46,708 nt of DNA from Armatimonadetes bacterium DC. GTDB lineage: Bacteria; Armatimonadota; Fimbriimonadia; Fimbriimonadales; GBS-DC. This document shows positions 23,784 through 32,520 of this stretch, piece after piece. Both the position numbers and the translations under genes were made by a program. The notes beneath the pieces were generated by a model, which worked only from the letters and a program-made list of their open reading frames with translations, had not been told where the DNA came from and did not search any database. Location of the stretch: contig LDYB01000014.1 in the NCBI GenBank assembly GCA_001442985.1, positions 259,054 through 305,761 of the forward strand, written 5' to 3'. Every line of letters starts with the position of its first letter. Positions within the stretch are counted from its first letter, which is position 1.

Positions 23784-24638
23784 ATGCAGGAACCGGCACG
23801 GAAAGAGCTATCGGGGCTGGCGAACCGCTTCGAAAGTTTTCTCTTTGACCTGGATGGGGTGGTCTACCGGGGACACCAGCCCTTGCCCCATGCGGTTACC
23901 ACGCTCAACCTGCTTCGCGAAGCCGGGCGTCAGATTTTCTTTCTGACCAACAACTCTGGCGCCACACGAGAGCAATATGCCCACAAGCTCACCGCGATGG
24001 GCATTCCCACCACGCCGGAGCAGGTCATCACTTCTGGCTGGGCAACCGCGCTTTATCTCAAAAAGGCGCTCCCGAACGCCAAACTGTTCGTGGTGGGCGA
24101 ACCCGGGCTCAAAGAAGAACTCGCCTCGCACGGTTTTGCGCTCATAGAGAACCCCGACGAGACTCTGCCCGATGCCGTGGTGGTAGGGATTGATCGGAGC
24201 TTTGATTACACGCGCCTTGCGCAGGCACAGTACGCCATTCTGGAAGGCGCACGCTTTATCGCCACAAATGCGGACCCCACCTATCCCGCCGAGCATCGGC
24301 TGCTGCCTGGCGCGGGCGCGATTGTCGCCGCGATTGCCACTGCCACCGGACGCAAGCCGATCCTGATTGGCAAGCCCAACCCCGAAATTCTGGCGCCCCT
24401 GATTCAGGCGCAACGCATCCACCCCCAGACGACCCTGCTGGTGGGTGACCGTCTGGACACCGATATTGCGCTGGCGAACCACCTGCATATCCCCTCCGCG
24501 CTGGTACTGACGGGCGTCACGCAACGCAACGATGTGGAATGCGCGCCGCTGGAACTGCTCCCCACATGGGTTTTGAACCATCTGGGCGAACTGCTCGGCG
24601 ATGCGGTGGAGAACCTCTTGATTCACCCAACGGCATAG
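23784..24638 (+). CDS. HAD-family phosphatase, NagD/PNPase type
   Basis: A 284-residue haloacid dehalogenase-superfamily phosphatase of the class IIA (NagD, 4-nitrophenylphosphatase, phosphoglycolate phosphatase-like) group. Motif I is FLFDLDGVVYRGHQPLPHA near residues 22-40, with the nucleophile Asp. Motif II is FFLTNNSGATREQY, motif III has the Lys in ILIGKPNPEIL, and motif IV is TLLVGDRLDTDIALANH. The ATG at 23784 lies two bases after the preceding stop, so it is likely co-transcribed with hepT. The natural substrate is unknown. The gene's 3' end contains the -35 box of the tRNA-Ala promoter. Confidence 0.9.
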   Translation: MQEPARKELSGLANRFESFLFDLDGVVYRGHQPLPHAVTTLNLLREAGRQIFFLTNNSGATREQYAHKLTAMGIPTTPEQVITSGWATALYLKKALPNAKLFVVGEPGLKEELASHGFALIENPDETLPDAVVVGIDRSFDYTRLAQAQYAILEGARFIATNADPTYPAEHRLLPGAGAIVAAIATATGRKPILIGKPNPEILAPLIQAQRIHPQTTLLVGDRLDTDIALANHLHIPSALVLTGVTQRNDVECAPLELLPTWVLNHLGELLGDAVENLLIHPTA

Positions 24639-24646
24639 GGTATAAT
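24618..24646 (+). promoter_or_regulatory. tRNA-Ala promoter, TTGATT-N17-TATAAT
   Basis: A -35 TTGATT (24618-24623, inside the HAD gene), a 17-base spacer ending in GGG, and TATAAT (24641-24646). The mature tRNA begins ten bases later. The second tRNA copy at 32441 has no equivalent upstream, so this promoter marks the left copy as the original, expressed gene. Confidence 0.75.
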
Positions 24647-24650
24647 TAAG

Positions 24651-24736
24651 CGCAGTGGGGCGGTAGCTCAGCTGGGAGAGCGCTAGAATCGCACTCTAGA
24701 GGTCGGGGGTTCGAATCCCCTCCGCTCCACCAGATT
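24651..24736. repeat. Left 86-bp direct repeat (attL)
   Basis: Identical to 32435-32520. It comprises six bases before the tRNA (CGCAGT), the whole 76-base tRNA-Ala and GATT after it; sequence diverges immediately on both sides. An integrase gene lies 75 bases downstream, so the repeats are read as attachment sites. The exact crossover point cannot be located because the copies are identical. Confidence 0.85.
24657..24732 (+). tRNA. tRNA-Ala(CGC), promoter-bearing copy
   Basis: A 76-base cloverleaf with encoded CCA. Acceptor GGGGCGG/CCGCTCC includes the G3-U70 pair that identifies alanine tRNAs. The D-stem is GCTC/GAGC, the anticodon stem CTAGA/TCTAG with loop ATCGCAC (anticodon CGC, reading GCG), and the T-arm GGGG-TTCGAAT-CCCC. 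It has its own promoter upstream and serves as the integration site of the element to its right. Confidence 0.97.
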
Positions 24737-24757
24737 GTATCCTTTCCCTCTGAAACC

Positions 24758-24780
24758 CCGCAAACACCCCATATCTTGGG
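24758..24780 (+). repeat. Left inner inverted repeat, candidate integrase arm site
   Basis: CCGCAAACACCCCATATCTTGGG, 25 bases inside the left tRNA copy, matches the reverse complement of 32399-32420 (CCGCAA-TACCC-A-ATATCTTG) with one gap and about three mismatches. It also contains the small hairpin ACACCC/GGGTGT (24765-24782). Placement just inside each end in inverted orientation is typical of arm-type recombinase sites; the role is inferred. Confidence 0.5.
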
Positions 24781-24810
24781 TGTCGCCCGCGCTTCCTCTG
24801 GAGCCACTCT

Positions 24811-25758
24811 ATGGCAGAGAACCCTAGAATCGCGATTCGCGTAGAGGATACTCATAACGAGATTCAGTGGGCACTGGAACTCTGGCTCGAAGCACTGGAC
24901 GCAAAAGGGTGCAGTCGCAACACGCTCGCGTGCTACCGCTACTACCTGCAACCGTTTGTGGAGTTTCTCGCGCGTCAAGGACTGACCACGCTGGACGCTG
25001 TGCAACCCCTGCATATTCGCAGGTGGCTGCTCTCCCGACGCGAACAGGGGGTATCCCCCAAGACCCTGCGCAACGCGCTCGCGTTCCCTGAGGTCTTCTG
25101 GAACTGGTGCGTGCGTGAGGGACTGACCGAAAATAACCCCTTCGCAAAGGTGGAGAAACCCAAAGTCCCGCCCAAAGTCAAGCCTGCTCTGACCCCTGAC
25201 GAAGTGGAACAGATTCTGCACGCCTGCGAAGGAAAGGATTGGCTCCGACTTCGCGATAAGGCGCTGGTGCTACTCTTACTCGACACGGGATTGCGCATAC
25301 ACGAAGCGCATAAACTCACGGTAGCGGACGCGAAGCAGAACTGCCTGCTGATTCGAGGCAAAGGAGGCAAACAGCGTGTGGTGTTTCTCTCAGCGGAAGT
25401 CCGACTCGCGATAAACCGCTACCTGAAAGCGTGCCCGTACCCGCTGAAAGACGAATCCCCACTCTGGCAAGGGGAGCGCGGCGCTCTGACGCTGGACGGC
25501 ATAAAGCTCGCGATTCGCAAACTGGGGAAGCGTGCAGGACTGCCGAAACCGCTGGGAGCGCATGCGTTTCGCCGAACTTTCGCGACTTGGAGCCTGCGGA
25601 ACGGCATAGACTTGGAGCATTTACGCCAGCTCATGGGGCACTCTGACTATGCCGTGCTTCGCCAGTACCTCGCGCTGGTGGAAGCTGACCTGAAGCAGGC
25701 ACACCAGCAACACAGCCCCCTGCGCACGCTTCTGAAAAAGGGAGGGACACGCCGATGA
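24811..25758 (+). CDS. int: Tyrosine recombinase/integrase of the element
   Basis: A 315-residue phage-type integrase. The N-terminal SAM-like core-binding domain is at residues about 20-110 (KGCSRNTLACYRYYLQPFVEFLA). The catalytic domain follows, with Arg in LLLDTGLRIHEAHKL, Lys in GKGGKQRVVFL, His-x-x-Arg in GAHAFRRTFATW, His in LMGHSDYAVLRQY and the likely nucleophile Tyr in RQYLALVEADL. All catalytic positions are present. It should excise and integrate the element at the tRNA-Ala repeats. Its ATG is 78 bases from the left tRNA, the usual place for an integrase, and its stop overlaps the next gene (ATGA). A CTAGAATCGCG copy of the tRNA anticodon region lies in codons 5-8. Confidence 0.95.
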   Translation: MAENPRIAIRVEDTHNEIQWALELWLEALDAKGCSRNTLACYRYYLQPFVEFLARQGLTTLDAVQPLHIRRWLLSRREQGVSPKTLRNALAFPEVFWNWCVREGLTENNPFAKVEKPKVPPKVKPALTPDEVEQILHACEGKDWLRLRDKALVLLLLDTGLRIHEAHKLTVADAKQNCLLIRGKGGKQRVVFLSAEVRLAINRYLKACPYPLKDESPLWQGERGALTLDGIKLAIRKLGKRAGLPKPLGAHAFRRTFATWSLRNGIDLEHLRQLMGHSDYAVLRQYLALVEADLKQAHQQHSPLRTLLKKGGTRR

Positions 25759-26129
25759 AATTCTATCGCCTGCACTCCCCACGAAGCGGATATGAGATGA
25801 CCATCCTTGCTCGCTCTTTTGAGGAAGCCGTCGAGGTGTTTGCCGAGCTGGCAGGGAGTGGTGAATGCGAGCTGCTCGGCGTCGAGCCTCTGCAGTTTAA
25901 CCCCTCGCTGTATATCGGCGTTGCGGAAGGACGCGCCTTTGTGGGGCGTTTCGTGCCTGTGGGCAGGGGCGAATACTGGCTGAAGCCTGCGCTCAACTGG
26001 CAGGAGCTGGAAGCGGAGGCACGGGCGTGTGTGGAGGCGCAAGGGGGCACGCTGACAGAGGCAGGTCTTTACCGTTGCCCGCCTGAGCTGGCGCAACGGG
26101 CACGGTTTGGGCAGGAATCGGGCGAGTAG
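25755..26129 (+). CDS. Unknown 124-residue element protein coupled to integrase
   Basis: I do not recognise the family. MKFYRLHSPRSGYEMTILARSFEEAVEVFAELAG suggests an alpha/beta fold. There is no signal peptide or membrane segment, and the C-terminal half is Ala/Glu-rich and probably helical. The ATG overlaps the integrase stop (ATGA), so it is made together with the integrase and could be a small accessory factor such as an excisionase-like or regulatory protein. No helix-turn-helix is obvious, so that idea is weak. Confidence 0.7.
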   Translation: MKFYRLHSPRSGYEMTILARSFEEAVEVFAELAGSGECELLGVEPLQFNPSLYIGVAEGRAFVGRFVPVGRGEYWLKPALNWQELEAEARACVEAQGGTLTEAGLYRCPPELAQRARFGQESGE

Positions 26130-26138
26130 GCGCGAATC

Positions 26139-26144
26139 TTGACA
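26139..26144 (+). promoter_or_regulatory. Candidate -35 box before the hairpin leader
   Basis: A perfect TTGACA ten bases after the preceding stop codon. The best -10 at suitable spacing is weak (TTGCAT, 26163-26168). If used, transcription would start within or just before the structured leader and drive the gene at 26243. Confidence 0.35.
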
Positions 26145-26148
26145 GTAG

Positions 26149-26237
26149 CCGTCGGGTGCGGTTTGCATGCGCCCCGTAAGTGCAGGCGGTGTCCTCATTC
26201 ACCGCCTGCAACCCGACGGTGAGCCTGAATGAGGAGG
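26149..26237 (+). promoter_or_regulatory. Nested hairpin leader with loop complementary to the Shine-Dalgarno
   Basis: Outer arms CCGTCGGGT (26149-26157) and ACCCGACGG (26211-26219) pair perfectly. Inside them TGCAGGCGGTG (26181-26191) and CACCGCCTGCA (26200-26210) form a perfect 11-bp stem with an eight-base loop, TCCTCATT. The loop plus two bases (TCCTCATTCA) is the exact complement of TGAATGAGGA at 26226-26235, which covers the ribosome binding site GAGGAGG of the next gene. A loop-to-ribosome-site pseudoknot or a competing helix could therefore block translation. Pairing is directly visible; regulation is inferred. Confidence 0.6.
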
Positions 26238-26242
26238 CGAAC

Positions 26243-27082
26243 ATGGAGCAGCAACGCCAGCGGAAGGCGCACCATCGCGCCCCTTTGGAAGTCCAGAGTC
26301 GGCTTCTGCAAGCCTACTGGGAAGTGCTTTTACAAGACGAACGATTCTGTGAAGAGTGGCGAATCCTGTGCCATTCCGAACGGTGCAAAAAGTGGCTTCA
26401 ACTTCGTGAACAGTGGGATTCCATGAAGCGCGAAAAGAAGCGCAAAACGGCGGGTGTACTCACCGAGATGTTTATTGCCCAGTCAGATTTTTACAGTCAT
26501 GTGAAATTGTTTTGCTACAGGTGGAAACTACCCTGGCGCTTGTATCAGAGCATTATCGAAACCTTTGCGAGTGTACCGAAGGAATGCTGTTCCTCTCCCC
26601 ATGTGCTTGAGGAAATTGCGCAAGGGAAGCTATGCCTGATAACGACTCGCCTTTCCCCCTATCCTTATGGGCGTTCCCCAAAGCGCAAACGCCATAAGTT
26701 CCGCATAGTGATGGAGTTTCCCGAATATGACCCCCTTACGCAATCCCGCGAAGCCTACCTTGCGAGCTGCCGTAAGCAGGCACTGAAGCAGATTGAGAAA
26801 CAGGGGCGCGAATATTGCCGTGAAGTGGAACGCGCCACGAAGGAAGGTTTGTCCTTTGACTCTTTTCATAGACCCTGCTGGAACCGCTATCGGGATTCCG
26901 AATACATCAAGCGGGTGGCTAAGCAGGTCTATCTCAGGGTTGTCAAAGGTTGGTCTTGGGGACAGATTAGTTCATGTGTGAGGGGACGGCGTGCAACTGT
27001 AGAACACTCCACCAACCGAGCCATCGATATCCTCAGCCCGTTCCTGCCATTCTGCCTCCAAAATACCCCCAGAAGTGTCTAA
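26243..27082 (+). CDS. Unknown 279-residue basic protein behind the structured leader
   Basis: I do not recognise the family. The protein is basic and Cys/Trp/Arg-rich, largely helical, with KCxKWLQLREQW and a long KREKKRKTAG segment. The C-terminal region (EYIKRVAKQVYLRVVKGWSWGQISSCVRGRRATVEHS) could be a helix-turn-helix DNA-binding domain of the Sigma-70-r4/transposase type. The ATG at 26243 is set by GAGGAGG five bases upstream; the open frame extends further 5' but runs through the hairpin. Tight apparent control and a DNA-binding-like tail fit a replication initiator or master regulator of the element; this is inference. Confidence 0.65.
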   Translation: MEQQRQRKAHHRAPLEVQSRLLQAYWEVLLQDERFCEEWRILCHSERCKKWLQLREQWDSMKREKKRKTAGVLTEMFIAQSDFYSHVKLFCYRWKLPWRLYQSIIETFASVPKECCSSPHVLEEIAQGKLCLITTRLSPYPYGRSPKRKRHKFRIVMEFPEYDPLTQSREAYLASCRKQALKQIEKQGREYCREVERATKEGLSFDSFHRPCWNRYRDSEYIKRVAKQVYLRVVKGWSWGQISSCVRGRRATVEHSTNRAIDILSPFLPFCLQNTPRSV

Positions 27083-27138
27083 AGCTCCCACACGGGGTTT
27101 GCTTTGGATACCCCTCACTATGATAGAATGCTCGCGCT

Positions 27139-27336
27139 ATGATGACAGTGCGCGAGATTCTGTATTGGGATGACGCAGCTTTCGAGGCGCTAAAGCGTCG
27201 TGCAAAGCGGAACTTTCGGACAGTGCGAGCTGAAGTGGCAGCCATCCTCATGAGAGAGCTGCAAGAGGAGGCTGAGCAGATACGCAGGGAGTGGCAATCC
27301 AAAGAGTCGCGTGAAGGGGGTGAGTCCCAGCCATGA
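27139..27336 (+). CDS. Small ribbon-helix-helix-like protein
   Basis: A 65-residue protein, MMTVREILYWDDAAFEALKRRAKRNFRTVRAEVAAILMREL..., resembling the FitA/Arc-type pattern (strand, then helix with LKxRAxxNxRSxxxEVxxIL). It is probably a dimeric DNA-binding regulator or antitoxin. TATGAT/TAGAAT sequences at 27119-27129 lie nine or more bases before the ATG, with no Shine-Dalgarno, suggesting its own leaderless promoter. Its stop overlaps the primase-helicase ATG (ATGA), so it could set replication protein levels. No toxin is adjacent. Confidence 0.6.
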   Translation: MMTVREILYWDDAAFEALKRRAKRNFRTVRAEVAAILMRELQEEAEQIRREWQSKESREGGESQP

Positions 27337-29642
27337 GAAACGCGAACGCCCCCCACCCGCAGGGGAACGGCAGGGGGCAATCAGCAGGGCGTCCAAGTAT
27401 CCCCGACAGGGATTATACCCCGCCCGCCCTCTCGCTGGAAGCCGTCCTGCCCCACCTGCACAAAGTCCAGCCCCTCTCGGACGGGAGCTACCTTGCCTGT
27501 TGCCCCGCCCATGACGATAAGGAACCGAGCCTCTCCCTGAAAGAGGAAAACGGCAAACTGCTCTGGCACTGCTTCGCAGGGTGCAGTCAAGACGCCGTAC
27601 AACGCGCTCTGCTGAACCTCGTGAACCGAACCGCCCCACGCCACGCCCCACAGGGGCTGACGCTGGAGCGCTATGCCAGCGCCAAGCAACTGCCTATAGA
27701 CCGCCTTCGTGCGTGGGGCTGTGAGGACGCCCAGTATCAGCAGATTCCTGCCGTGCGGATACCCTATCGCGATAGCGAGGGCAACCTGAAGGCGGTACGG
27801 TACAGAATCGCCCTCACGGGCGAGAACCGCTTCCGCTGGCGAACAGGCGATAAGCCGACGCTCTACGGGCTGTGGCGCTTGCCAGAGTGGCAGGGTGCAG
27901 AAGTGGTGTATCTGTGTGAGGGTGAGTCGGACACGCATACGCTCTGGAGCGCAGGACTGCCCGCGCTGGGCGTCCCTGGCGCCAGCGTGTGGCAAGCCGA
28001 GTGGTGGGCGTTTCTGCAACCGTTTTCGCGCGTGGTGGTGATTCCTGACCGTGATGAGGCGGGGCAACACCTGCTGAGGAATCTGATGATAACCTGTCCT
28101 GAAGACCTGCTCCATCGGGTGCAGGTGGTGTCTTTGCCCGAAGGGTGCAAGGATGTGAATGCGCTCTGGGTACGCGAGCGAGCCGATATCGCAAGATTCC
28201 TGCAGGCGCTCCAGCAGTGTGCCTCGAAACCCCTTCAGTCAGTTTCTTCTCTTAATGTCCCCCCCGCCAAAGAAACTGAAACGGAACCCCTCTGGTGTAT
28301 CCGAACGGGGCGTGAGCTGGTAGAAATGGACTTCCCGCTCCTCACAAGCCTGCCTCTGCTGGGGCAAGCAGGGTTCCTTTATGAGCGCTGTAGCCACCTG
28401 CTTGTGGCACACCCGAAGGCAGGCAAAACACAGGTACTGCTCCACTCCGCCATCCAGTGGCTGGAGCAGGGGAAGCGTATTGCCATTCTTTATGAGGAAC
28501 CCGAAGCGCTGATGGCAAACCGCCTGAAGACCTTGCCCAGCCTGCACGCCCTTGCGAGCGAACAGGTGCTTTTCATCAAGCTGAGGACTCCCCTGACGGA
28601 TAGGACGCTAAGGGCGTTAGACGCCCAGCTGCATGCGGATATTTATGTGGTGGACACCGCCCGTGCGTTTCTGCCGATAGAGAACGAAAATGACAACGCC
28701 GAGCTGGCACGGACACACTATGCGCTGGTGAACGCGAATCAGGAGATGGGCAAGACGCTGATTATGCTCCACCACGCGCCTCAGGAGCTGCCCACGAAAA
28801 TCGCACTTCGCTCGGCTGGGGGACTGGCAACGGCAGGAGCCTACGATATGGTGATTGCGATAGAGCAGATTCAGCGGGGTGATGACTGCTACTGCCGTGT
28901 GGAAGCCGAGGGACGCTTCGCGCCTCCCCCACCTTTCGAGTTCCGCTGGGAAAACGACACGCTGGTGCTGAATGCGGTAGTCCCCTATCGCGAACAGCTG
29001 GAGCTGGCGGTAATCCGTGCGCTGGCGCAACTTCACCAACGGAATCCCGAGAAAGACTACTTCCCGACGGCGGAGATTCAGGGAGCGTTGGAGATAGACG
29101 GCAATCCGACAGCGTTCCGTGTGATAGAGGCGCTCCAGCGCCTCGCGGAGCAAGGCAAGGTCAAGGAGTCGCCCACGAGAGGGGCGCGAAACGCCCGCCT
29201 GTGGCGCTTAGTTTCAGTTTCTTTGGAAGGGGGGATATTAAGAGAAGAAACTGAAAGCGCCCCTGAGGCGCAACCCCCCACCAACCCCTTCGCGACACGG
29301 CAGGCACTGAACCCTGACCCCGAACTGGACGCCATCCTGAATACCCTCACACAGGGCGACTTCGCACTGGAACCTGCCGATGTGGACGCCATCCGAATCT
29401 TCTGGAGCTTCGCCCAAGCGCGAGGCTTCCCCCCGCTGGAACTGCCCGCTTACGGCTACACCCTGCCCGCAGGACGCGAAGCCTACCTGAACGCCCTCTA
29501 TGACCTCGCGGGCACGGAAGCCATCCCCCTCGCCACGCGGGCGCTCCAGCAACGGGACAGCACAGGTGAACCTGCGCTGACCGCTACCCAAACCCAACCC
29601 GCTGACAGGGGTGCTACCCCTGTCCAACCGACGCTGATGTAA
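27333..29642 (+). CDS. Primase-helicase: CHC2 zinc finger, TOPRIM and RecA-like ATPase
   Basis: A 769-residue replication protein. A CHC2-type zinc-binding segment lies near residues 48-90 (CCPAHDDKEPSLSL...LLWHCFAGCSQDAVQRAL). A TOPRIM domain follows at about 185-270 (VVYLCEGESDTHTLWSAGLPALGVPGAS, then VVVIPDRDEAGQHLLR), carrying the conserved Glu and Asp-x-Asp. A RecA/RepA-like ATPase is at about 340-540 with Walker A VAHPKAGKTQVLLH and Walker B DIYVVDTARAFLP. A winged-helix-like tail is near 560-630. This is the layout of phage and plasmid primase-helicases. The ATG overlaps the previous stop. It implies autonomous replication after excision, by inference. Confidence 0.9.
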   Translation: MRNANAPHPQGNGRGQSAGRPSIPDRDYTPPALSLEAVLPHLHKVQPLSDGSYLACCPAHDDKEPSLSLKEENGKLLWHCFAGCSQDAVQRALLNLVNRTAPRHAPQGLTLERYASAKQLPIDRLRAWGCEDAQYQQIPAVRIPYRDSEGNLKAVRYRIALTGENRFRWRTGDKPTLYGLWRLPEWQGAEVVYLCEGESDTHTLWSAGLPALGVPGASVWQAEWWAFLQPFSRVVVIPDRDEAGQHLLRNLMITCPEDLLHRVQVVSLPEGCKDVNALWVRERADIARFLQALQQCASKPLQSVSSLNVPPAKETETEPLWCIRTGRELVEMDFPLLTSLPLLGQAGFLYERCSHLLVAHPKAGKTQVLLHSAIQWLEQGKRIAILYEEPEALMANRLKTLPSLHALASEQVLFIKLRTPLTDRTLRALDAQLHADIYVVDTARAFLPIENENDNAELARTHYALVNANQEMGKTLIMLHHAPQELPTKIALRSAGGLATAGAYDMVIAIEQIQRGDDCYCRVEAEGRFAPPPPFEFRWENDTLVLNAVVPYREQLELAVIRALAQLHQRNPEKDYFPTAEIQGALEIDGNPTAFRVIEALQRLAEQGKVKESPTRGARNARLWRLVSVSLEGGILREETESAPEAQPPTNPFATRQALNPDPELDAILNTLTQGDFALEPADVDAIRIFWSFAQARGFPPLELPAYGYTLPAGREAYLNALYDLAGTEAIPLATRALQQRDSTGEPALTATQTQPADRGATPVQPTLM

Positions 29643-29656
29643 GGAGGTCTATGGCG

Positions 29657-30049
29657 ATGATTCTCACCATTCAAAGCACAGAACCCCTGCCAACTGGGGA
29701 ATATCGCGTGAAGCTGGTGGAGCTGACCACTGTGGACGGCAAGTATGGCGAACAGCTCCGCTGGAAGCTGGAAGTGGCACAGGGCGAGTACGCAGGGCGC
29801 ACGCTGACGGCGTTTTGCTCGCCTTCGGGCAATCCTGCGAGCAAGTGCGTGCGCTGGGTGTCGGCGCTGATAGGACGCCCTCTGCAGGCGGGTGAGCAGG
29901 TAGACCTCGCCACGCTGGTGGGCAAAGAGGCGCGGGCAGTGGTGATTGTGAAAGCCACGCCCGAAGGACGCGAGGTCAACAGCGTGCAGGAACTGCTCCC
30001 GCTTCGCCCGCGCCCTGCCAGAGAGGACGCCACGCTACTGGACGACTGA
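29657..30049 (+). CDS. DUF669-like single-strand-DNA-associated phage-type protein
   Basis: About 130 residues: MILTIQSTEPLPTGEYRVKLVELTTVDGKYGEQLRWKLEV...YAGRTLTAFCSPSGNPASKCVRWVSALIG...EARAVVIVK. The pattern of a beta-rich OB-like half followed by a short helical part and a closing strand resembles DUF669 and related proteins, which occur beside phage primases and may bind single-stranded DNA. The ATG at 29657 is preferred to 29651 because it lies nine bases after AAGGAGG. It follows the primase-helicase directly, supporting a replication role. Family assignment is by pattern only. Confidence 0.65.
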   Translation: MILTIQSTEPLPTGEYRVKLVELTTVDGKYGEQLRWKLEVAQGEYAGRTLTAFCSPSGNPASKCVRWVSALIGRPLQAGEQVDLATLVGKEARAVVIVKATPEGREVNSVQELLPLRPRPAREDATLLDD

Positions 30050-30057
30050 ACCCGACA

Positions 30058-30090
30058 GGGGCAGGGGCGTGCTGCCACACGCCCCGCCCC
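30058..30090 (+). repeat. GC-rich hairpin inside the element operon
   Basis: GGGGC-A-GGGGCGTG (30058-30071), loop CTGCCA, CACGCCCCGCCCC (30078-30090): a 13-bp stem with one bulged A and no following T-run. It lies between the DUF669-like gene and the GTG-start gene, so it may act as an RNA-processing or partial attenuation site rather than a full terminator. Confidence 0.45.
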
Positions 30091-30109
30091 ACTGAGGAGG
30101 TGATACAAG

Positions 30110-30469
30110 GTGATAGGTAAGACGGCGATTCCACAACAGGGGCGCATTCTCCTGCAAGCCCCGAACGGCAAAGTGTACGGCGTGATAGAGAACCGCACGC
30201 TGAAAAAGCGCGTCGTGGGCACAAAGCACTTCCTGCGCAAACCGCCTGCGATTGCGATAGACGCCGACCTGTTCCAGCGGTATCGCGCCGAGTTTGACAC
30301 GATAGAGGTGCAGGATGTGGAAACGGGCGCGGTCTATCGGCTCTCGGCGAGGCAGTTTGAGTCGTGGTGCTGGGAGCTGGAGCGGGGCTACGGCAAGCAG
30401 TATGCGGTCTTGCTCTCGCGCTGGGCGGTGCAGAAGCCTAACGACCCGCAACTGGTGCTGGAGGTGTAG
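30110..30469 (+). CDS. Unknown 119-residue element protein
   Basis: Not recognised. It starts at GTG 30110 after an excellent GAGGAGGTGAT. The sequence is beta-rich at the N-terminus (GRILLQAPNGKVYGVIENRTLKKRVVGTKHFLRKPPAIAIDADLFQRY) and helical at the C-terminus (RQFESWCWELERGYGKQYAVLLSRW). There is no signal peptide or metal motif. Its place among replication and nuclease genes suggests a DNA-metabolism accessory; nothing in the sequence confirms this. Confidence 0.7.
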   Translation: MIGKTAIPQQGRILLQAPNGKVYGVIENRTLKKRVVGTKHFLRKPPAIAIDADLFQRYRAEFDTIEVQDVETGAVYRLSARQFESWCWELERGYGKQYAVLLSRWAVQKPNDPQLVLEV

Positions 30470-30470
30470 T

Positions 30471-30698
30471 ATGCCGACGCTTCAGCCTGAACGCGAGCCG
30501 AGACAAAGACCGTGCCCCGACTGCAACACCCAGTATCGCCACAAGGACGGCACGACCTACGGCGACGGGTTATGTGCCGACTGTGGGGGCACGGGCAAAG
30601 ACCCGCTGACTGACGAACCCTGCGACGCCTGCTTCGGAAGCGGGTTATGCGATACCTGCAACGGCGCAGGCACGCTGATAGAGGAGGTGCCACGATGA
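30471..30698 (+). CDS. Small DnaJ-type zinc-ribbon protein
   Basis: A 75-residue protein with four Cys-x-x-Cys knuckles, CPDCNTQY, CADCGGTGKD, CDACFGSGLC and CDTCNGAGTL, spaced like the zinc-binding domain of DnaJ (CxxCxGxG) but without a J domain. It should bind two zinc ions and may mediate protein or nucleic-acid contacts. The ATG at 30471 is one base after the previous stop; its own stop overlaps the next ATG (ATGA), so synthesis is coupled. The longer upstream frame overlaps the preceding gene and is rejected. Confidence 0.75.
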   Translation: MPTLQPEREPRQRPCPDCNTQYRHKDGTTYGDGLCADCGGTGKDPLTDEPCDACFGSGLCDTCNGAGTLIEEVPR

Positions 30699-30934
30699 AT
30701 CAACCCCAAATCGTACCTGTGCTGAAGACACTGATTGTCTATCTGGGCGACAGCGTGCTTTACTACTTCACCGCTCCGTTTGCCGTGCGCCTCGAATCGC
30801 GCGAGAACGGCACACTGTTGACCGTTATGCACGATTCGGGCGTGCGCCAGTTTGTGGTGGGAAAAGACCTCATCAACACGCTGGCGTGTGTGCATATCGG
30901 CGAGGTGGAGGCGCTTGAGGAGATTCGTGCGTGA
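30695..30934 (+). CDS. Unknown 79-residue element protein
   Basis: MNQPQIVPVLKTLIVYLGDSVLYYFTAPFAVRLESRENGTLLTVMHDSG... is not recognised. It looks like a compact alpha/beta domain with no membrane segment or metal motif. GAGGAGG lies six bases before the ATG, which overlaps the stop of the zinc-ribbon gene; the 3' end overlaps the VRR-NUC gene by eight bases. Coupling on both sides supports it being a real gene. Confidence 0.7.
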   Translation: MNQPQIVPVLKTLIVYLGDSVLYYFTAPFAVRLESRENGTLLTVMHDSGVRQFVVGKDLINTLACVHIGEVEALEEIRA

Positions 30935-31235
30935 GCGGGACTTCCAGCGCACGGTGATAGAGCTCGCGCGACTGCGGGGCTGGCGGGTGTATCACGCCCG
31001 CCCTGCCCTCACTCAGCGCGGGCGCTGGCTGACGCCCGTGCAGGGCGATGTGGGCTTCCCTGACCTCGTGCTGGCACGACAGGGACGGCTGATATTCGCC
31101 GAGCTGAAACGCGAAGGCAGGAAGCCCACGCCCCCGCAACAGGGCTGGCTGGAGGTGCTGGCGACCTGTGCAGGGGTAGAGGTCTATCTGTGGACGCCTG
31201 CGGATTGGGGGGAGATTGTTCGAATCTTGCGATAA
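30927..31235 (+). CDS. VRR-NUC (PD-(D/E)XK) nuclease
   Basis: A 102-residue stand-alone VRR-NUC domain. The active-site Asp is in GDVGFPDLVLARQGRLIF and the Glu-x-Lys is in FAELKREGRKPTPPQQGWL; the QQGW helix is also characteristic. Such nucleases occur in phages and cut branched or flap DNA. The start is taken as GTG 30927, with GAGGAG four bases upstream, overlapping the previous gene; no other start fits the family length. Next to a primase-helicase it may resolve replication or recombination intermediates. Confidence 0.85.
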   Translation: MRERDFQRTVIELARLRGWRVYHARPALTQRGRWLTPVQGDVGFPDLVLARQGRLIFAELKREGRKPTPPQQGWLEVLATCAGVEVYLWTPADWGEIVRILR

Positions 31236-31261
31236 AGGCTCGCTATCAAGCGGGCTTCGGG

Positions 31262-31267
31262 TATAAC
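31262..31267 (+). promoter_or_regulatory. -10 box for the coiled-coil gene
   Basis: GGGTATAAC with the box at 31262-31267, seven bases before the ATG at 31275. It follows a short hairpin (GCTCGCT 31238-31244, AGCGGGC 31249-31255) that may end the preceding operon. It suggests an independent, leaderless transcript. Confidence 0.5.
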
Positions 31268-31274
31268 TTGAGGC

Positions 31275-31874
31275 ATGAAACCCCTCGAAACCCTCCTTGA
31301 GCAAGCCGAAGCCCTGCGCCGTGAATGGCACGACCTGCCCAAACGAACCGACTCTGCCTTGCTTAAGGGCGATAAGGACGCCCTGCTGGACGCTCAGATT
31401 CGGGAGCGCCAGATACCTTATGAGTTTCTGCTGAACCTGAAACAGCGTGCGGAAGCCGTTGCCGAGATGATTCGCGCCGATATCGAAGCCGTCGCCCAAC
31501 AGCGCGAGGCGGTACGGGCGAAGCTTGTGGCTGTCATCGAGGCGCTGGAGAAAGCATGGCGCGAGCTGGAGCCACTGCAACGCCAGTGGTGTGAGCTTGG
31601 TGGCTCTTCAGAAGACCAGCCCCTCTATCAGCTCCAACGCGGCGGCTTTGTGTATGTATGCGATAATCGCCAGAGTCGCCTGCGAAGCGAGCTTGAAACC
31701 GTCGAGGACGCTCTCCGCAATCTCGAACCTCTCCTGAAGGGCGTAGGGGAAGGTGAGAGCAAGGCGATTGTGATGGCTCGGCAGGCTTTGCAGGACGGTG
31801 GCGAGAGCTTGCCCGCCGTGCGCAACTACCTCGCCATCGAGCGCCACTATATCACGCGCGAACACCAGCCGTAG
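31275..31874 (+). CDS. Coiled-coil protein of unknown function
   Basis: A 199-residue charged protein with long helical, heptad-like stretches (LETLLEQAEALRREWHDLP, AVAEMIRADIEAVAQQREAVRAKLVAVIEALEKAW, LRSELETVEDALRNLEPLL) and a short break near residue 120 (GGFVYVCDNRQ). There is no signal or membrane segment and no recognised family. It is the last gene of the element and appears to have its own promoter and a leaderless start, unlike the coupled genes before it. It could be a cargo gene, a superinfection factor or a structural partner. Confidence 0.7.
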   Translation: MKPLETLLEQAEALRREWHDLPKRTDSALLKGDKDALLDAQIRERQIPYEFLLNLKQRAEAVAEMIRADIEAVAQQREAVRAKLVAVIEALEKAWRELEPLQRQWCELGGSSEDQPLYQLQRGGFVYVCDNRQSRLRSELETVEDALRNLEPLLKGVGEGESKAIVMARQALQDGGESLPAVRNYLAIERHYITREHQP

Positions 31875-32348
31875 CCCCACTCGCGCCAGCATGCGCCCCT
31901 ACACTGCGGTTTGCGGGAGCATGAGGGTGTCTTTGTGTCCTTTTCGGGGGGGCGGTATCGGGCAGAGTGTGGGAGAATCTTATGCTGAATCGGGCAGTTT
32001 GTGGCATACCTGCGAGCTGGCACATCACGGCAGGGGCGCGAACAGGCGCAGGGAAGGCACGGGAGCGGGAACCTGCGCCTGTTTCGTGCAGAATAAGGCA
32101 GTTTCGGGTTCAGCACGGGGGAGAGGGAGAAAACGGGAGTTTTCGATTTGTTCGAGGCAGGAATCTTCACACACGAGGCGTATAAAGAGAATGCCAGCGC
32201 AGTGAACGGGGCACTGCACTGGCGAGGCTCCAGCAGGTGCAGGCTGCTGAAGCGGACTGTAAGATTCGAAACTCGCTCCGAGTTTCCTGCTGAGCGCCTC
32301 TGAAAATCCCCCGAATCGGGGAGCCTGACCCTCCAACAGGCAGAGGAA

Positions 32349-32365
32349 GAGAGCGCTAGAATCGC
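32349..32365 (+). repeat. 17-base fragment of tRNA-Ala near the right end
   Basis: GAGAGCGCTAGAATCGC is identical to bases 24676-24692 of the tRNA, from the D-arm through the 5' anticodon stem to the last anticodon base. It lies 75 bases before the right tRNA copy, in the same orientation. A shorter piece, CTAGAATCGCG, recurs at 24824-24834. It may be an integrase core-type binding site or a relic of an earlier integration. Confidence 0.55.
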
Positions 32366-32398
32366 GCGAACCCTGAAGGGGCAGAGAGGGCGTGAAAA

Positions 32399-32420
32399 CG
32401 CAAGATATTGGGTATTGCGG
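32399..32420 (-). repeat. Right inner inverted repeat, candidate integrase arm site
   Basis: On the minus strand CCGCAATACCCAATATCTTGCG, 20 bases inside the right tRNA copy, pairs with the left site at 24758-24780 in inverted orientation with one gap and about three mismatches. Confidence 0.5.
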
Positions 32421-32434
32421 AGGGTGCAACACAA

Positions 32435-32520
32435 CGCAGTGGGGCGGTAGCTCAGCTGGGAGAGCGCTAGAATCGCACTCTAGAGGTCGGGGGTTCGAAT
32501 CCCCTCCGCTCCACCAGATT
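32435..32520. repeat. Right 86-bp direct repeat (attR)
   Basis: Identical to 24651-24736, covering CGCAGT, the complete tRNA-Ala and GATT. It marks the right boundary of the integrated element. Confidence 0.85.
32441..32516 (+). tRNA. tRNA-Ala(CGC), second copy, apparently promoterless
   Basis: Base-for-base identical to 24657-24732, with CCA, the G3-U70 pair and the CGC anticodon, so it could function if transcribed. No TATAAT-like box lies at the right distance upstream (bases 32421-32440 are GC-rich), in contrast to the left copy. It would regain the promoter after excision by recombination between the repeats. Confidence 0.95.

Follow-up and report, generated by a model that had tools for sequence, protein, structure and literature searches.

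The window analysed here is a stretch of 46,708 nucleotides on contig C14 of the 2.85-Mb assembly of Armatimonadetes bacterium DC (source genome, G000). This report concerns the block at positions 24651-32520, which is probably a 7.8-kb element that integrates site-specifically into a tRNA gene and resembles phage satellites. The block is bounded by two identical tRNA-Ala(CGC) genes of 76 bases (24657-24732 and 32441-32516), which were called with ARAGORN, score 65.4 bits each with Rfam and have an intact fold. A sequence-only reading of this DNA had described the pair as identical together with ten flanking bases, and this was confirmed as an exact 86-bp direct repeat (24651-24736 = 32435-32520), consisting of the tRNA, six bases on its 5′ side and four on its 3′ side. 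No other tRNA-Ala(CGC) gene was found in the assembly, the next best match being Ala(GGC) at 89%. A sigma-70-like promoter precedes the left copy only, and none is recognisable upstream of the right copy. All genes between the two copies lie on the + strand, and the features are as follows:

24618..24646, +: sigma-70-like promoter of the left tRNA-Ala, TTGATT-17-TATAAT
24651..24736, +: left 86-bp repeat (attL, left attachment site)
24657..24732, +: tRNA-Ala(CGC), copy with promoter (ARAGORN, Rfam)
24811..25758, +: tyrosine integrase, XerC/D-like, 315 aa (PF00589 3e-30; motifs TGLR, GKGGK, HAFRR, GHSD and RQY present)
25755..26129, +: 124-aa protein, its start overlapping the integrase stop (ATGA); no family match
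26243..27082, +: gene-2 protein, 279 aa, with a C-terminal helix-turn-helix (HTH)-like motif, conserved in sister elements; the open reading frame opens at 26180
27139..27336, +: ribbon-helix-helix (RHH) protein, 65 aa, likely regulator (FitA-like RHH 1.5e-4, below cut-off)
27333..29642, +: primase-helicase, 769 aa, with zinc finger, Toprim and AAA_25 (phrog_239 2e-32)
29651..30049, +: DUF669-like replication protein, 132 aa (DUF669 8e-4, slightly below the curated cut-off), conserved in sister elements
30110..30469, +: 119-aa family signature protein with a weak nuclease-like fold; a homologue lies beside a portal-like gene on an IMG/VR phage contig
30471..30698, +: zinc protein, 75 aa, CxxCxGxG repeats
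30695..30934, +: small protein, 79 aa, similar ones in sister elements
30927..31235, +: VRR-NUC nuclease, about 102 aa (PF08774 7e-4; phrog_93 1e-12)
31275..31874, +: helical protein, 199 aa, 40% identical to a protein of the Thr(TGT) element described below
31875..32434, +: non-coding right end, 560 bp, with four diverged 18-bp repeats
32349..32365, +: extra exact 17-bp copy of the D-arm/anticodon stretch of the tRNA, 86 bp inside the right end
32435..32520, +: right 86-bp repeat (attR, right attachment site)
32441..32516, +: tRNA-Ala(CGC), complete, without recognisable promoter (ARAGORN)

Two features that define integrative elements are present, namely an intact tyrosine recombinase gene at one end and a tRNA repeat in the same orientation at both ends. 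Family searches also bore out the gene block proposed from the sequence (integrase, primase-helicase, DUF669-like protein, VRR-NUC nuclease and zinc-ribbon protein), with DUF669 just below its cut-off. The primase-helicase had no sequence match in PDB. The structure model of the 119-aa protein (predicted local distance difference test, pLDDT, 71.7) gave no more than weak matches to nucleases in PDB, and in BFVD it matched unnamed phage proteins; the model of the 199-aa protein (pLDDT 51.5) was too poor for use. No capsid, portal, large terminase or tail family was matched in the element, which is therefore not a complete prophage; nor was any relaxase or secretion family, so that it does not classify as an integrative and conjugative or integrative and mobilizable element (the origin of transfer was not searched). 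The GC content of the element (0.598) does not set it apart from its flanks (0.603 and 0.619).

Within the primase-helicase gene, two 41-bp palindromic repeats (28239-28279 and 29214-29254; TCAGTTTCTT...AAGAAACTGA) sit in frame, mutually inverted and 975 bp apart, where none would be expected by chance; by recombining with each other, they could flip the central part of the gene. Near the element ends, the extra 17-bp copy at the right is accompanied at the left by a 10-bp match to tRNA-Ala at 24824, 87 bp inside. These matches may represent integrase binding sites or a relic, and no equivalent extra copy of the anticodon arm was found inside the sister elements. The four diverged 18-bp repeats at the right end could conceivably mark a replication origin.

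The 119-aa protein served as a marker for screening 113 genomes of the class, and a search with the integrase recovered further elements. The marker was present in five of the 113 genomes, four of them (the source genome included) belonging to the same family, which supports the earlier proposal of a family of integrated replicons or satellites in this lineage. A peptide-pattern search of 84,980 species genomes returned a single locus, in Fimbriimonadales bacterium KatS3mg018 (AP024673.1), apparently the same as G099, and a search of IMG/VR with the 119-aa protein returned one distant phage contig. In total, eleven sister elements with related integrases were found in six genomes, at eight tRNA species: Thr(TGT), Thr(CGT), Lys, Leu, Gln(TTG), Gln(CTG), Arg and Val. 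Five of them reside in the complete genome G099, at tRNA-Lys(TTT), Thr(CGT), Leu(TAA), Gln(TTG) and Gln(CTG). Two more, at Arg(TCT) and Thr(TGT), belong to G107, G102 and G103 each have one at Thr(TGT), and a more distant relative was found at Val(GAC) in G006, which belongs to another family. The sister integrases are mostly 52-74% identical (43% for the Val relative), most elements measure 6-12 kb, and at the other tRNAs the genes follow largely the same order from the integrase onwards. These satellite-like elements of Fimbriimonadales appear to form a group not described before. Some members carry restriction-modification cargo: the Gln(TTG) element encodes a type IIG restriction-methylation enzyme and a ParB-methyltransferase, and the Gln(CTG) element a type II restriction and methylation pair (both in G099, loci L055 and L058).

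The eleventh sister lies in the source genome itself, at tRNA-Thr(TGT), where its two ends fall on separate contigs, the left on C4 and the right on C15. The C15 end recurs at several other places (100% over 77 bp) and begins a transposase-like frame, so that this element, of about 7.5 kb without the insertion, is probably split by a multi-copy insertion sequence. The end of a multi-copy insertion sequence is also seen at positions 5-81 of the window (G000:C14:259058-259134, - strand), with identical copies elsewhere, including the one that interrupts the Thr(TGT) element.

Comparison of the left and right ends revealed that the extent of the shared block varies widely. It spans the full tRNA in the Ala element (86 bp), the full tRNA plus 61 bp downstream in Lys (140 bp), and only the classical 3′ part, from the anticodon stem to the 3′ end, in Thr(CGT) (47 bp). 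The Leu block (69 bp) starts in the D loop, and that of Thr(TGT) in the source genome runs from tRNA position 3 to the 3′ end, its right copy having lost the first two acceptor bases. The remaining blocks measure 80 bp with one mismatch (Arg), 66 bp with one mismatch (Thr(TGT) of G107) and 67 bp (Val). Both Gln blocks (87 bp, at 95% in Gln(TTG) and 100% in Gln(CTG)) start 20 bp upstream, the -10 box included, and stop shortly before the 3′ acceptor strand; here it is the left copy that is truncated, at its 3′ end, and the right one that is whole, an uncommon 5′ configuration in which the promoter is supplied by the element. According to a review of archaeal elements, recombinant bacterial tRNA genes use their original promoter with very few exceptions, and attachment sites extending past the tRNA have been described for archaeal elements (PMC8371274).

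Complete tRNAs at both ends were found in three of the ten pairs, and all ten blocks overlap from the anticodon arm to the T arm. The crossover therefore likely lies within the anticodon arm, judging from the sequences compared, and anticodon-centred crossover is a known class (PMC4383910, PMC8371274). The full tRNA copy, flagged earlier as unusual, is real in the window; as a defining trait it did not hold, since blocks of 47-140 bp form a continuum within the family, and the complete copy is one end of this continuum rather than a fixed trait. In the open-access literature (most subscription journals were outside the scope of the search) we found no direct precedent for bacterial elements with complete tRNA copies.

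Sites with a single tRNA were found in relatives for several members. For the window element, G094 and G108 share 2.7 kb upstream of the left tRNA, followed by a single tRNA-Ala(CGC) without integrase or element. At Thr(CGT), one intact tRNA in G102, G097 and G107 (by sequence), and likewise in G103 and G106 (by match range), is followed directly by the right flank of the G099 element. At Gln(CTG), one intact tRNA precedes the same right flank in G100, G096 and G000; because the regions upstream of tRNA-Gln are not conserved among relatives, the left flank of the Gln elements is not comparable. In a side observation, the tRNA before the flank gene in G107 (C60; L145 2101-2174) is Gln(TTG), where the relatives have Gln(CTG), an isoacceptor switch at one locus.

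The elements lie in both orientations relative to the tRNA. In one orientation, seen in Ala, Thr(TGT) of the source genome, Gln(TTG), Arg and the G103 element, the integrase adjoins the left copy at its 3′ end; in the other, seen in Lys, Thr(CGT), Leu, Gln(CTG), the G102 element and Thr(TGT) of G107, it adjoins the right copy at its 5′ end. Closely related integrases occur in opposite orientations, at Gln(TTG) versus Gln(CTG) (81% identical) and even at the same tRNA-Thr(TGT) (G107 versus G103, 86% identical). With the order of the genes, read from the integrase, largely preserved, it is the element as a whole that has switched direction with respect to the tRNA.

Genes for structural proteins, conjugation or secretion were recognised neither in the window element nor in its sisters. 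The sequence-only reading had likewise reported no capsid, terminase, relaxase or secretion gene and left the route of transfer open; the first part stands for the window element, and the route now seems less open, as sisters carry genes resembling the small terminase subunit (TerS). Such genes were found in the Thr(TGT) element of the source genome (phrog_4102 7e-15), in Lys (3e-11) and in Thr(CGT) (phrog_7344 2e-6), with a weak match in Gln(TTG) (6e-4). In addition, the homologue of the 119-aa protein adjoins a portal-like gene (a reading of the frame) in an 80-kb IMG/VR contig. Phage packaging would be the likeliest, as yet unproven, route of transfer. A Terminase_6N match in seven of the eight family genomes was considered as a helper prophage and rejected, as at the one locus inspected, in G099, it is a lone gene among ordinary host genes. 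This large-terminase-like gene (L153 9815-11032; G099:C1:2272815-2274032), with one match per genome in those seven and no capsid gene nearby in G099, is perhaps a domesticated terminase.

These observations can be combined into a mechanism. The Xer-like tyrosine integrase would recombine a tRNA-Ala(CGC) carried on a circular form of the element with the host copy, the crossover most likely falling in the anticodon arm. Of the two products, the left would retain the host promoter and remain the working tRNA, and the right would be complete and promoterless; a complete copy would arise because the attachment site carries the whole tRNA, with six and four flanking bases, far beyond what the crossover needs. 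Excision is predicted to yield the circular junction GGTGCAACACAACGCAGT-tRNA-GATTGTATCC and the empty-site junction TATAATTAAGCGCAGT-tRNA-GATTCTCCTC. The element's own primase-helicase module would replicate it after excision, and helper-phage particles would most likely carry it between cells in satellite fashion. Several points weigh against this account. Of the empty Ala site expected in relatives, the left side was found in G094 and G108, whereas the genes downstream of their tRNA differ from those in the window, so that the site is only half shown; the joined arrangement (NagD-tRNA-Ala(CGC)-right flank) was not found among the relatives. No TerS gene is recognisable in the window element, and the TerS matches of the sisters are in part to a generic helix-turn-helix. 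Moreover, no helper prophage was found, and no HK97-type capsid was present in the eight genomes (other capsid types were not searched).

How the tRNA came to be duplicated may be explained differently. Gene conversion after integration, with an attachment site that was originally the 3′ part and repair tracts that spread outward, is a serious possibility, though short of probable, and is compatible with site-specific integration: the block ends are erratic and cross the limits of the tRNA on either side (in Lys and Gln), and the family includes a conventional 47-bp block, whereas the few differences between copies in Gln(TTG) and Arg indicate that homogenisation is incomplete. It is quite unlikely that the copies are two host loci, or a segmental duplication, joined by rearrangement with the element genes caught between them and no element-borne tRNA. 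Gene order around tRNA genes is fluid in the family, and rearrangement is possible for the Arg(TCT) element of G107, because in relatives its right flank lies behind tRNA-Arg(TCG) or Arg(CCG) and its left flank before Arg(TCT). However, none of 18 family genomes has a tRNA-Ala(CGC) near the genes of the window's right flank (relatives match the pilT-like gene only), Thr(CGT) combines a classical 3′ fragment with single intact copies in relatives, and ten pairs with the integrase at one end fit random rearrangement poorly.

Other alternatives concern the nature of the element and its tRNA. A decayed prophage or integrated plasmid that is no longer mobile seems rather unlikely; the small size, the lack of TerS in the window copy and of a detected helper, the GC content equal to that of the flanks and the insertion sequence in the sister Thr(TGT) element would agree with it, but the integrase and primase-helicase frames are open with their motifs present, several separate elements share one compact gene order without structural genes, and the complete genome G099 has five members. 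Selection of the element-borne tRNA as a working second tRNA-Ala(CGC) for the host is very unlikely, despite a complete and identical copy with intact fold and the promoter brought by the Gln elements, because the right copy in the window has no promoter; the right Thr(TGT) copy, moreover, is truncated at its acceptor end, and most sisters carry fragments only.

The erratic block ends appear to favour either outward gene conversion between the copies or capture of a whole gene upon retargeting. The latter, which we regard as doubtful, holds that a near-symmetric core site allows the integrase family to insert in both directions at the anticodon arms of many tRNAs, and that the element takes up the entire tRNA, in some cases together with the promoter or DNA downstream, as its new attachment site. 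If so, the target range would evolve through uptake of complete tRNAs and not through changes in integrase specificity alone.

Among known systems, phage-inducible chromosomal islands (PICIs; PMC6092414) are similarly compact and combine an integrase, a replication module and a small regulator without structural genes, a combination also present in the window element, with TerS-like genes in its sisters. The family described here differs in being smaller, at 6-8 kb for most members, and in belonging to another phylum. No master regulator of AlpA or Stl type was recognised, the window element having only the RHH protein and the Thr(TGT) sister HTH_3 proteins. Very reduced satellites do exist, as demonstrated by the phage-inducible chromosomal minimalist islands (PICMIs) of Vibrionaceae (PMC10803314), which share a very small size, an integrase, a primase and a gene overlapping the integrase (here the ATGA overlap at 25755, found in the window element only). 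PICMIs require AlpA and Fis in the set int, alpA, prim and fis; neither family was found in the window element, and its primase shows no sign of the PICMI type. With no homologue of AlpA, Stl or Fis found, the window element was not filed under either class. P4-like satellites are known to carry anti-phage cargo (PMC9122126). The 5′ configuration with an element-supplied promoter, seen in both Gln elements, and attachment sites that may extend outside the tRNA, as the blocks do here, are shared with pTN3-like elements (PMC8371274); those are archaeal and their integrase gene is split upon integration, whereas here it is intact and XerC/D-like.

A further parallel is with the islands catalogued by Islander (PMC4383910), which likewise have a tyrosine integrase, a tRNA target, an island between the tRNA and its repeat and an anticodon-centred crossover. 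There a tRNA fragment lies at one end (3760 3′ and 159 5′ fragments among 3919 islands), whereas here a single integrase family displays 3′, 5′ and full-length configurations. Target change by tRNA-targeting elements is an old question, and close integrases at no fewer than eight tRNA species, in both orientations and with all three kinds of copy, offer a natural series for testing it. Catalogues that demand a tRNA fragment miss elements with a full copy: as Islander discards any match that falls within a full-length tRNA gene, the Ala, Lys and Arg members would be filtered out, and the full-copy configuration may be commoner than recorded.

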